This document shows, one piece after another, positions 43,058-46,506 of a DNA stretch of 64,000 nucleotides. Source of the stretch: Hirschia sp. (GTDB lineage: Bacteria; Pseudomonadota; Alphaproteobacteria; Caulobacterales; Hyphomonadaceae); contig PAQI01000016.1 in the NCBI GenBank assembly GCA_002709235.1, positions 55,868 to 119,867 on the forward strand, given 5' to 3'. A program made the position numbers and the translations under genes. Position 1 is the first letter of the stretch, and every line of letters begins with the position of its first letter. The notes beneath the pieces were generated by a model, which ran no database searches, had not been told where the DNA came from, and worked only from the letters and a program-made list of their open reading frames with translations.

Positions 43058-43093
43058 TCACGTTGCAATTGAACATTGCAAGGCAGGCCCGTC

Positions 43094-43888
43094 ATGAACT
43101 TCACAGCCCTTATAGATTCCATGCGCCAGGATGGTGACTCGCTGATATGTGACGTCCCTGAGAACTGGAAACAAGGCCGTACTGTCTATGGCGGCACGAC
43201 TGCCGGATTGTGCCTCGCCACTGCACGCAAGTTGACCGGCGAAACCCGCGCCTTGCGCTCGGCCATGATATCTTTCGTAGGCCCTTCGACCGGCCAGTTA
43301 CGCCTGACAGCCGAACCAATCAGAGCTGGTCGCACGACAAGTACAGTACGCGCAAAATTGACGAGTAACGGCGCGCCCGCCACGGAAGTGATCTTTGCCT
43401 TTGCTGATCAAAGAGAAGATTCTCAAATCAGCATTCCTGCTGCTGGCTGGCCCGAAGGCACACGGCCACCGACCTCCAGCGAAGCCCAGACCATACCTGC
43501 CGGCATGGGACCGAAATTCACCCAGAACTTTGAATATTGCTATGGTTTTGGCGCGCTGCCTTATTCCGGATCAGATACAGCGGATATGGGCCTGTGGATA
43601 CGCCATATCGCCCCTGAAGCACGCGTGGGCGAATTGTCGCTCATGTGTATCGCCGACGCCATGCCGCCCGCATTGGTCACAAGGATGAAAGGCCCTGCGC
43701 CGCTCTCATCAATGAGCTGGCAGGCCAATTTCCTCACCGATGCCCCCACTACAGATGATGGCTGGTGGCTCCTGCGCGCTCGGGCACACAATCTGGCTGG
43801 CGGATTCTCAAGCCAGGAAATGACCATCTGGAATACCGCCGGAGACTGCGTTGTCAGCGGATTTCAACTGGTCACGGTATTCGCCTGA
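43094..43888 (+). CDS. acyl-CoA thioesterase family protein (double hot-dog)
   Basis: The 264-residue protein resembles TesB/thioesterase II-like double hot-dog proteins: VYGGTTAGLCLATARKLTG matches the first helix with HGG replaced by YGG, LRSAMISFVGPSTGQLRL the first sheet, and HNLAGGFSSQEMTIWNTAGDCV the second domain. It would hydrolyse acyl-CoA thioesters in the cytosol. ATG 43094 follows AGGCAGG; the TTG at 43076 is in frame. It lies 89 bases after the lyase and converges on the ligase-hydrolase fusion gene with a 4-base gap. Confidence 0.8.
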   Translation: MNFTALIDSMRQDGDSLICDVPENWKQGRTVYGGTTAGLCLATARKLTGETRALRSAMISFVGPSTGQLRLTAEPIRAGRTTSTVRAKLTSNGAPATEVIFAFADQREDSQISIPAAGWPEGTRPPTSSEAQTIPAGMGPKFTQNFEYCYGFGALPYSGSDTADMGLWIRHIAPEARVGELSLMCIADAMPPALVTRMKGPAPLSSMSWQANFLTDAPTTDDGWWLLRARAHNLAGGFSSQEMTIWNTAGDCVVSGFQLVTVFA

Positions 43889-43892
43889 TCTT

Positions 43893-46076
43893 TTAGACGC
43901 TGGCCGAAAAAGCATTGTCCCAGGCTGTTGCGTGATCGCGGTTCTCGATCTCGGTGCGCACGATCAACCGTTCTTTGCGTTCTTGCGCTGCCTCGACCAG
44001 AGATTTGAAAATGTTGCGTGCAAAGGCATGGTGCAGCAGGAATTCCGGGTGGAACTGAACGCCGACAAAGAAGCTACGCTCTGTGTGTTCTATCGCCTGG
44101 ACAAGTCCATTGGCCTCACGCGCCGTAATACGAAAATCATCGCCCACCTTCTCGATGGCCTGGGTATGAATTGAATTCACTTCAAGCCGGGTTTCATCGG
44201 CTACACCCGCCAGCCAGCTATCAGGCTCGATGATGATATCCTTGCGATAGAAGATGCGGCGCATGAATGTGGTTGGATAATCCTCATCCTTGTAATGCGA
44301 CAGATCGGGAAGCAGCGTTCCGCCTCCCAGGACATTGATCATCTGCATGCCTCGGCACACGCCAAGCACGGGGATGTCATGGCGCATGGCGGATTCAGCC
44401 CAGCTCGCCTCCATGTCGTCTCGAGCGATATCATAGGTGTAGCCCTGCTTTGCAGCGCCTTCATAGCGTTCCGGAAAGACATCTGCGCCGCCTCCGAAAA
44501 TCAGGCCATCGACAGATCGTGGATCGCGCGGGGCCTTTGCGGTGATTTTCACCGCCTTGCCTCCCGCCAGGTGAACGGCGAGTTTCATCGCCTGATAGGC
44601 CATCCAGTCACCCTCCTCCGGCTTTGTAATGCCGATTATTGGTCTGGCATCCGGATCAAATCGGTCCGACAGGGCGACAGGCTTTGTGCCTCGTGGCGCG
44701 TCTTCATCGCGTTTTCCAGCCTCGAACTTGAATTCCGGCGGGAGCTCTCCGTGACGCATCAAATGGGATACGGCGAATAGGACACCCAATCCTACGGCGG
44801 GATCACTGTCGGAATTGAACTCCGATGACAGCCCCTTGTGTGATTCCAGCTTCTTGCCCAGAGACCGGACCATGCCCGCACCCAGGGCCGCTTCTCCAGC
44901 TGATTTCATGAAATGGGATGCCATGGAAAGGATATCGGCACTGGATGCGCTGGACTTCATCTTTCGCCATTCATCGGCAGCCTGCTGTAGATGCTCGTCA
45001 TTCTGCGCAATGTCCTGCGCGGCCGAGAGTATCCAGGCACCCGGCGTACGTGTACGAAGACCGACATTCGCGACATCGTCTGCAAGCGGGGCAATTTTCC
45101 GGCCTGCTGCCAGCAGGAAGTTCAGCCATGGAAAATCAACGCCGGCTTCCATGGAGTGATGCAATCCCGCCCAGAAGCGCGGATTCATCTCAAGCATTTT
45201 GGGTTCGACAGCGTGATCGCCATTCCAGCGATAGTCGATTTCACCCACCCCATGCCAGTTGGTTGCCTTGAGTAGTTGACGTGTCGAGGCAAGGAATGGT
45301 CTGGCATCAATCGTCTCGCGGACCGCTCCGGCTCCCGCATCAACGGGAAACTGTGTGATATTGCGATAGGCAACCGCACCAATCAGTTCGCCTCGATCAG
45401 CAATGATCGACATGCAGTAATCGACACCATCGACCAGATCCTGAAGCAATACGGGCTGACGATTGTCAGCCTCCTTCAGATAGGTCTCCAGCTCCTGCGC
45501 ATCATCGATCTTGCTGACGCCCCGCCCACCGACGCCATCAGCAGGCTTGGCAATCATGGGAAATTCAAGTCCGTCTGGTACATCTTTGATGGATGAATCT
45601 GCTGGCAATATGCGCGTGCCCGGACCTGGCAAATCCTCATCCTTGAGAAATTTCGCAAAATGATCCTTGGGATGAATTTTTTCAATTGAAGACCAATCCG
45701 GGGCCGCAATCTGGATCATCGGCTCGAAACGGTCCCGGTGACGCGAGAAGATCCGTGCATCCCGAAAAGCAGGAATGAGGACATAGGGGCGGTCATCATC
45801 GGGGGCATGTTTTCGGATGTTTTCGGCAAAATCCAGTAATGCCGCTTCTTCATCTTCTTCAAAATCAGCATGGGTAAAGGTGGATGTCACATGCTTTGAG
45901 AAAGACAAGACCGTCATGTCGACGCTGTCACAGCCAATGACCTCCACGCCCTGCTCGCTCAAGCTACGGGCGATGACCAGGGCCATCAGGCTGCGCCCAT
46001 AGGTGACGATTGCCCGCCCGGCAGGCGGATCACCTGCAAGAGCAGACGTATGATCACTTTCAGGCTTGGTATTCAT
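43893..46076 (-). CDS. ATP-grasp ligase / PuuD-type gamma-glutamyl hydrolase fusion
   Basis: The 727-residue protein joins two enzymes. Residues about 20-330 form an ATP-grasp ligase: a Rossmann-like start (AIVTYGRSLMALVIARSL), ATP-binding Lys177 (FPMIAKPADGVGGRGVSK), QDLVDGVDYCMSII, and the metal residues Glu296/Asn298 (MLEMNPRFWAG). Residues about 475-700 form a class I glutamine-amidotransferase-like peptidase C26: Cys574 (LGVCRGMQMINVLGGGTL), EVNSIHTQAI, and His676/Glu678 (GVQFHPEF). About 140 helical residues link them. The ligase half resembles carbamoyl-phosphate-synthase-like ligases, the other half PuuD. A bifunctional synthetase/amidase making and breaking a gamma-glutamyl or similar amide is inferred; ammonia transfer between halves is an alternative. 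It stands alone on its strand. Confidence 0.88.
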   Translation of the reverse strand: MNTKPESDHTSALAGDPPAGRAIVTYGRSLMALVIARSLSEQGVEVIGCDSVDMTVLSFSKHVTSTFTHADFEEDEEAALLDFAENIRKHAPDDDRPYVLIPAFRDARIFSRHRDRFEPMIQIAAPDWSSIEKIHPKDHFAKFLKDEDLPGPGTRILPADSSIKDVPDGLEFPMIAKPADGVGGRGVSKIDDAQELETYLKEADNRQPVLLQDLVDGVDYCMSIIADRGELIGAVAYRNITQFPVDAGAGAVRETIDARPFLASTRQLLKATNWHGVGEIDYRWNGDHAVEPKMLEMNPRFWAGLHHSMEAGVDFPWLNFLLAAGRKIAPLADDVANVGLRTRTPGAWILSAAQDIAQNDEHLQQAADEWRKMKSSASSADILSMASHFMKSAGEAALGAGMVRSLGKKLESHKGLSSEFNSDSDPAVGLGVLFAVSHLMRHGELPPEFKFEAGKRDEDAPRGTKPVALSDRFDPDARPIIGITKPEEGDWMAYQAMKLAVHLAGGKAVKITAKAPRDPRSVDGLIFGGGADVFPERYEGAAKQGYTYDIARDDMEASWAESAMRHDIPVLGVCRGMQMINVLGGGTLLPDLSHYKDEDYPTTFMRRIFYRKDIIIEPDSWLAGVADETRLEVNSIHTQAIEKVGDDFRITAREANGLVQAIEHTERSFFVGVQFHPEFLLHHAFARNIFKSLVEAAQERKERLIVRTEIENRDHATAWDNAFSASV

Positions 46077-46160
46077 GTCGTTCCCTCCTCAGTCAGAGAA
46101 AAGAACGCTCAGGAACCGGATTAGTTCGATGTCTGTTGCGCCAGGCATGTCGCTACAATG

Positions 46161-46192
46161 AAAAAAGCGCGCTCCAGATGATGGAACGCGCT
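46161..46192 (-). terminator. intrinsic terminator of rpmB
   Basis: On the minus strand AGCGCGTTCCA and TGGAGCGCGCT (46192-46182 and 46176-46166) pair over 11 positions with one G-U wobble around a 5-base loop, followed by TTTTTT (46166-46161). It lies about 30 bases after the rpmB stop. Confidence 0.88.
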
Positions 46193-46221: not shown

Positions 46222-46506
46222 TCAGGCAGCGTTTTTCTTGGCAACTTCGCGCTTGATCTTCAGGACGCGCGCGGAAAGTTCTTCATCGCGTGCCTTGGCA
46301 AGGAATGCATCAAGACCGCCGCGCTTGTCCACGGTACGCAGGGCGTGAGCCGCAATGCGCAATTGATAGTCCTGACCCAGTGCGTCGGAACGCAGCGTAA
46401 CCTTCACCAGGTTGGGAAGGAAACGACGCTTGGTCTTGATATTGGAGTGGGACACCTTGTGACCGACCATTGGCTTGGTGCCGGTAAGCTCGCATTCGCG
46501 GGACAT
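46222..46506 (-). CDS. rpmB: 50S ribosomal protein L28
   Basis: The 94-residue protein has the L28 start [20 protein letters not shown] followed by [12 protein letters not shown], and the tail [17 protein letters not shown] typical of alphaproteobacterial L28. The Cys4 is not part of a CxxC pair, so it is the zinc-free type. It is monocistronic with its own terminator; rpmG is not adjacent. Confidence 0.97.

Follow-up and report, generated by a model that had tools for sequence, protein, structure and literature searches.

In the 64,000-nucleotide stretch of Hirschia sp. DNA analysed here (the window), a single polypeptide joins an ATP-grasp ligase to a hydrolase of the C26 family (Table 1). 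We propose, with a probability of roughly one half, that this protein is a bifunctional synthetase/hydrolase which, as part of the stress response, both forms a gamma-glutamyl-type amide and takes it apart again. The ATP-grasp half would activate a carboxylate as an acyl phosphate and couple it to an amine; the likeliest carboxylate is the gamma-carboxyl group of glutamate or a glutamyl compound. The C26 half would hydrolyse this gamma-glutamyl amide, or one closely akin to it, by way of a thioester on Cys574. Together, they would control how much of a small gamma-glutamylated metabolite (or of a protected amine) is present during stress and give it back once the stress is over, with the net flux between synthesis and release set by stress. 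We infer the gamma-glutamyl chemistry, the action of both halves on the same bond and the stress control in the window strain, and likewise the substrate and the reversibility.

The fusion gene and its surroundings

The reading frame opens with ATG, preceded a few bases 5' by GAGGAGG, and it encodes the ligase first and the hydrolase second, in agreement with the initial annotation. That annotation placed the gene alone on its strand, with thioesterase and rpmB genes around it. Both neighbours are present, but rpmB (46222-46506, PF00830) is co-directional with the fusion gene and lies 145 bases upstream of it, so the gene is not alone; the thioesterase gene (43076-43888, plus strand, 4HBT_3) is convergent. 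A GC-rich inverted repeat with a T run was noticed by eye 3' of rpmB (46157-46192, minus strand; the scan did not report it) and could insulate the fusion gene from rpmB transcription. Recent pseudogenization of the window copy was ruled out by its intact reading frame and conserved sites.

Table 1. Features of the fusion gene and its upstream region (window coordinates).
Feature	Position	Strand	Remarks
ATP-grasp/C26 fusion gene (P0001)	43893..46076	-	intact ORF, 727 aa; Pfam; 15 further fusions aligned
ATP-grasp ligase half	44727..46025	-	about residues 18-450; K177, GGRG 183-186, D281, E296, N298
Low-confidence joint between halves	44664..44723	-	residues 452-471; pLDDT <50
C26 (PuuD/SpuA-type) hydrolase half	43962..44648	-	about residues 477-705; C574, H676, E678
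EcfG-like promoter candidate CGAAC-N17-GTT	46104..46128	-	one mismatch, 52 bases before ATG; weak

Both halves resemble complete enzymes

Seven Pfam families matched the window protein at E values up to 0.1, four of them over their curated cut-offs. Two of the four fall in the N-terminal half (ATPgrasp_Ter, residues 207-326, E 4.6e-11; ATP-grasp_3, residues 137-301, E 1.8e-7) and two in the C-terminal half (Peptidase_C26, PF07722, residues 500-678, E 1.2e-42, 146.6 bits; GATase, PF00117, residues 560-695, E 1.3e-14, 54.7 bits against a cut-off of 22.8), and the remaining three are ATP-grasp-type models which matched below their cut-offs. All four families were also matched in each of the 16 fusions, the window protein included. 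An AlphaFold2 (AF2) model built on a 60-row alignment reached a mean pLDDT of 85.9 and a pTM of 0.77; the joint is the sole internal stretch below 50, and residues 361-400 are weak (54-61). In structure comparisons, the N-terminal half of the model was closest among ATP-grasp rows to 2pn1 (Z 26.9) and also aligned with PylC (4ffr, Z 25.0). The C-terminal half aligned with E. coli PuuD (6vtv, Z 31.5, rmsd 2.0 over 228 residues) and SpuA (7d53, Z 31.0), both at 24-31% identity, while the CTP synthase and ADC synthase rows gave Z scores of only 22.7 and 22.3. The structure prediction, proposed earlier as a check, puts each half alongside solved structures.

The catalytic residues are conserved. 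In the 60-row alignment, K177 and the GGRG loop are invariant in all 37 rows with a letter there, as are C574, H676 and E678 (37/37), and E296 and N298 are kept in 38 of 39 rows, the odd letters being taken to come from a misplaced C26-only row. The six residues named in the initial annotation (K177, E296, N298, C574, H676, E678) do not vary among the 16 fusions, which bears out its view that both catalytic sets are intact. Likewise, the outcome which it had listed as contrary, namely that only one half is a real enzyme fold, was not observed, since both halves match Pfam families and solved folds. The N-terminal half shares its fold, ATP-binding lysine, glycine loop and Glu/Asn metal site with the ATP-grasp carboxylate-amine ligases, and the C-terminal half shares the class I glutaminase-like fold and the catalytic triad with Peptidase_C26. 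A further residue of the ATP-grasp half, Cys221 (in GxDYC), is invariant in 37/37 rows and could be a redox or structural site.

Gamma-glutamyl amide hydrolysis or glutamine-dependent synthesis

MfnD has the ATP-grasp fold. Since this enzyme makes a gamma-glutamyl amine, such a bond would be within reach of an ATP-grasp ligase; the product is gamma-glutamyltyramine (PMC8141765). As for the hydrolase, we read the C26 half as a gamma-glutamyl amide hydrolase because its fold is nearest to PuuD and SpuA and because its PF07722 match exceeds that to PF00117 in bits. The Cys-His-Glu triad was found in all 30 unfused C26 proteins aligned, 15 of them paired with ATP-grasp ligases and 15 with amidoligases (see below).

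The main alternative is a glutamine-dependent amide synthase, in which the C26-like half would act as a class I glutaminase and supply ammonia to the ATP-grasp half, yielding an amidated carboxylate or a carbamoyl-type compound in the manner of carbamoyl phosphate synthetase. It would be consistent with the GATase match over its cut-off, which recurs in 30/30 unfused C26 proteins, and with several traits of the ligase half: in a profile search against solved structures, its best matches were carbamoyl phosphate synthetase large chains (1.1e-18), 2pn1 heads its ATP-grasp fold comparisons, and 21/21 unfused ATP-grasp members match the carbamoyl phosphate synthase-like NCBI models PRK12767.1-4 and 1-3, with scores far below the cut-offs in the one member inspected. 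Moreover, fusion and operon pairing with unrelated synthases are typical of class I glutamine amidotransferases, so that these enzymes would leave the same signature as the one on which the synthetase/hydrolase reading draws. A ligase and a hydrolase acting on one bond would also waste ATP unless regulation separates them. On the other hand, C26 prevails over GATase in bit score both in the window protein and in an unfused member (161.2 vs 59.8), the Z scores stand at about 31 for C26 enzymes and about 22 for amidotransferase rows, and the C26 enzymes of established activity hydrolyse gamma-glutamyl amines. The variable, low-confidence joint is unlike a fixed tunnel, though compatible with one. 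On balance, we consider glutamine-dependent synthesis unlikely, yet serious enough to be kept in view.

Distribution of fused and split forms

Long matches to the window protein were found in 12 of 105 genomes of its family: the window genome itself, seven genomes of genus g7 (all fused), G077 (in two frames) and three genomes in which the halves are encoded by adjacent genes (G038, G042 and G064). At E 1e-30 or better, 44 of 398 genomes matched in the sample of the order, 23 of 385 in that of the class and 21 of 398 in that of the phylum. For the class and phylum samples, where scoring covered the top two candidates of each genome, the ATP-grasp half was present, besides the window, only in G653 (class) and G121 (phylum, already in the order set). 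Beyond the phylum, one contig scan returned a single distant ATP-grasp match. The search for the same two-domain order, an earlier suggestion, recovered 15 further intact fusions in related genomes, and the fused form is present in four families of the order. A chance or assembly join was ruled out, as these 15 align end to end.

At 23 other loci, the two halves are adjacent genes, with -11 to +33 nt between the ligase stop and the C26 start. The position of the joint corresponds to the intergenic gap of these split forms, and its length varies among the fusions. Relatives also occur on plasmids: one in Xanthobacter autotrophicus Py2 (pXAUT01, 62.6% identity, frameshifted) and one, as two adjacent genes, in Phenylobacterium zucineum. 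The latter pair resides on a conjugative plasmid, surrounded by genes for Hsp20, Lon, TrxC and a ZIP transporter, a setting that looks like a mobile stress island. Frame changes break two fused relatives at different places, namely those of G077 and of the Xanthobacter plasmid, which may reflect either real decay or sequencing error. Among the loci analysed for pairing, only one C26 gene (L136, in G121) had no ligase on its contig, where the contig ends split the halves.

When 41 ATP-grasp halves were placed on a tree, a single branch (support 94) separated all 17 fused rows from the 24 split ones; the tree was built with a quick method, several of its long branches were flagged, and the frameshifted Xanthobacter row was counted as fused. 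A single fusion event would be the simplest account of this tree. The closest ATP-grasp relative of the window on it is the Xanthobacter plasmid copy. As for the genus mates, a search of G033 at E 0.001 came back empty, and G034 yielded just a remote ATP-grasp match. Because both lack the gene and its nearest kin is plasmid-borne, the fusion gene was likely acquired by transfer into the window lineage. A phage origin was set aside: six short patterns based solely on the window protein, with a reach limited to close relatives, had zero matches in IMG/VR, and none of the 19 matching phage records covered 80% of the query, the ten best matching one half only.

The two halves might also have been joined by an ordinary fusion while doing independent jobs with uncoupled chemistry. 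This seems very improbable to us, as they adjoin in 23/23 split pairs, the fusion is found across four families, and hydrolases of the same C26 subfamily have a ligase neighbour in 37 other loci.

The hydrolase occurs with two unrelated ligases

These 37 loci came from a selection of C26 relatives outside the ATP-grasp group, chosen solely by similarity to the window protein. In every one of them, a relative of Amidoligase_2 (PF12224) is located directly upstream of the C26 gene; 36 are class and phylum loci matched at E 1e-30 or better, from 36 genomes of these samples, and one is a Dinoroseobacter plasmid locus. The gaps range from -119 to +73 nt, and the genes overlap in 33 of 37 pairs. The Dinoroseobacter ligase, which served as query for the amidoligase relatives, matched PF12224 at 3.7e-40. 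A PF12224 search was positive in 11/11 amidoligase-type genomes (of the 36 found) versus 3/46 of the ATP-grasp type, the latter with much weaker scores. Three g7 genomes (G079, G081 and G085) carry the fusion together with a divergent Amidoligase_2 elsewhere in the genome (E about 1e-23). The window ligase is an ATP-grasp protein and falls outside PF12224. Hence, a C26 gene directly downstream of an amide ligase was seen in 23/23 split pairs and 37/37 amidoligase pairs, and in the window the two are fused. L015 and L016, two weaker C26 relatives that the family search had turned up, had neither ligase within about 1.5 kb on each side.

From the 23 ATP-grasp and 37 Amidoligase_2 pairings, it follows that the hydrolase keeps an amide ligase as its partner while the ligase differs. 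On the C26 tree, the rows paired with the one or the other ligase need two changes, and a single ATP-grasp-paired clade is compatible with the data (p-AU 0.66). The presumed exchange could have proceeded from Amidoligase_2 to ATP-grasp or in reverse, since the tree fits either direction. The window protein would then have originated by fusion of a two-gene operon, its ATP-grasp ligase occupying the slot held elsewhere by Amidoligase_2. A gene pair of Amidoligase_2 and a C26 thiol hydrolase was reportedly described by Iyer et al. in 2009 and in the Pfam text as well; we know of no established product for such pairs.

Four more distant C26 relatives are plasmid-borne. Two of them are near a ligase of the glutamine synthetase (GS) type and oxidoreductases, one of these ligases being annotated as ipuC, i.e. 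gamma-glutamylisopropylamide synthetase. The other two are in GABA/semialdehyde contexts (transaminase, succinate-semialdehyde dehydrogenase), with no ligase in view. Judged by sequence and context, C26 enzymes of this kind associate with gamma-glutamyl amide metabolism.

The catabolic setting of these four relatives is what might be expected if the gamma-glutamyl group gave transient protection, with the ligase glutamylating an amine, an enzyme encoded elsewhere altering it and the C26 half removing the glutamate. Parallels are the Puu route and BtrJ/BtrG of butirosin biosynthesis. The neighbours of the ATP-grasp-type loci, however, point in another direction. Of 28 neighbour clusters found in at least four loci, several of them common only within one genus, representatives of 19 were compared with Pfam, along with two proteins from smaller clusters or other loci. 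The 19 comprise, among others, stress-locus genes, small membrane or lipoprotein-like genes, MlaC, enoyl-CoA hydratase (four loci), a response regulator, glycosyltransferases and threonyl-tRNA synthetase; amine oxidase, aldehyde dehydrogenase and transaminase were absent from these 19. Glycerol-3-phosphate dehydrogenase recurs in two split-pair loci. As no such modifying enzyme is among the annotated recurring neighbours, we favour a two-enzyme cycle over a catabolic route. Besides, in our judgement the first and last steps of a pathway seldom fuse, and transient protection appears improbable.

Association of relatives with the general stress response

The initial annotation held that the context does not give the substrate. 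Some relatives, however, have the gene near the general stress-response locus, which offers a clue. Among the 41 loci of the ATP-grasp type (L034-L044, L065, L066 and L108-L135), PhyR and a HisKA_2/HWE kinase were encoded within the 16-kb stretch in nine (L037-L040, L121, L122, L128, L129 and L132, of which L037-L039 are near-identical), and an EcfG-type sigma factor was present in eight of the nine. These families were tested against Pfam on the L037 members and assigned in the remaining loci by clustering.

In Sphingomonas melonis Fr1, the EcfG motif is GGAAC-N17-20-GTT, and the targets include first-base variants such as CGAAC as well as a PRC-barrel gene (PMC6599016). The words amidotransferase, ATP-grasp, ligase and hydrolase are all absent from the main text of that regulon paper (PMC6599016). 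We scanned spacings of 15-18, against the published 17-20, from -120 to +50 of the start. The strict motif GGAAC-N15-18-GTT preceded 14 of 38 ATP-grasp or fusion ORFs versus 29 of the 505 remaining ORFs in these loci (Fisher p 1.1e-7, relatedness of the loci being ignored), and 23 of the 29 control matches fall in the nine PhyR loci. In the stretch scanned, 24 of the 38 relatives lack it. Three loci (L118, L119 and L127) were left unscored, since gene calling had dropped the ATP-grasp ORF; the ORFs behind the promoter and neighbour counts were picked with a greedy length/GC rule and include spurious ones. When a longer stretch was compared with shuffled sequences, 15 matches in 39 were seen against 0.83 expected, and the amidoligase pairs had 1 in 12. 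By eye, the matches are spread over about eleven groups on the ATP-grasp tree. A PRC-barrel gene with the strict motif is found near the pair in L121, L128, L129 and L132. Another gene with a strict motif, small and encoding a glycine zipper, immediately precedes the fusion in the same orientation in L037 (9179-9514), L038 and L039, and these fusions may be transcribed from its promoter.

On this evidence, expression of the relatives appears to go along with the EcfG general stress response. In the window, the gap upstream of the fusion gene contains only one-mismatch sites directed toward it, the better placed being that of Table 1, and by shuffling the probability of at least one such site is 0.064. 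The same gap has a strict GGAAC-N18-GTT at 46112 on the plus strand, which points toward rpmB and away from the fusion. PhyR is encoded on another contig of the window genome, with strict motifs nearby. By kinship, stress control is likely in the window strain, too.

Comparison with known systems

The nearest counterpart is the Amidoligase_2/C26 pair, in which the same C26 subfamily also stands directly behind an ATP-dependent amide ligase; the window protein differs in that its ligase is of the ATP-grasp fold, both enzymes form one polypeptide and there is a link, among its relatives, to the EcfG stress response. PuuD and SpuA, hydrolases of gamma-glutamyl-GABA and gamma-glutamylspermidine, share the fold and the Cys-His-Glu triad with the C26 half. 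They work, however, as individual proteins in polyamine degradation, alongside GS-type ligases, and their sequences are distant from that of the fused C26 half. Carbamoyl phosphate synthetase and other synthases with class I amidotransferases likewise unite an ATP-grasp synthase with a glutaminase fold of class I, but the hydrolase half of the window protein scores higher as C26 than as GATase, in sequence and in fold, and the protein has a single ATP-grasp unit.

Two bifunctional proteins offer parallels in design. The E. coli glutathionylspermidine synthetase/amidase carries an amide synthetase and an amidase in one chain, and its product is a stress-linked reversible conjugate, though the domain order and the folds are different. 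Neither of its domains (CHAP amidase and glutathionylspermidine synthase) is among the seven Pfam families matched in the window protein at E up to 0.1, and the earlier comparison with this enzyme, as an analogue assembled from other folds, seems reasonable. Aspergillus FluG is proposed to join a hydrolase to a gamma-glutamyl ligase in one polypeptide, as part of a pathway that runs through a gamma-glutamylated intermediate (PMC6478659); it differs in consisting of a metal-dependent amidohydrolase and a GS-type ligase, in the order hydrolase-ligase and in its role in fungal development.

A limited search of the literature, mostly at the level of titles and abstracts, revealed neither the ATP-grasp/C26 version nor its fusion nor the EcfG link, and no characterised enzyme of this build, as had been supposed at the outset. 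The two-gene amidoligase/C26 pair was reportedly noted before, and the ATP-grasp version, the fusion and the link to EcfG are apparently new within the scope of this search.

Biological meaning

The fusion implies that the two activities are used together, and the pairing of one and the same hydrolase with ligases of two unrelated folds suggests that the bond, not the ligase, is conserved. In E. coli, the amidase cysteine of the glutathionylspermidine enzyme is silenced by oxidation under stress. By extension, the alphaproteobacterial protein might be a stress-controlled switch for reversible conjugation, in which one protein makes and unmakes a gamma-glutamyl amide, Cys574 is possibly silenced by oxidation so that net synthesis results, and both ligase folds were recruited to the hydrolase for the same molecule; we regard this as speculative and, in its full form, doubtful. 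The PhyR/EcfG link provides a concrete condition, general stress, under which the metabolite could be sought in a culturable alphaproteobacterium.
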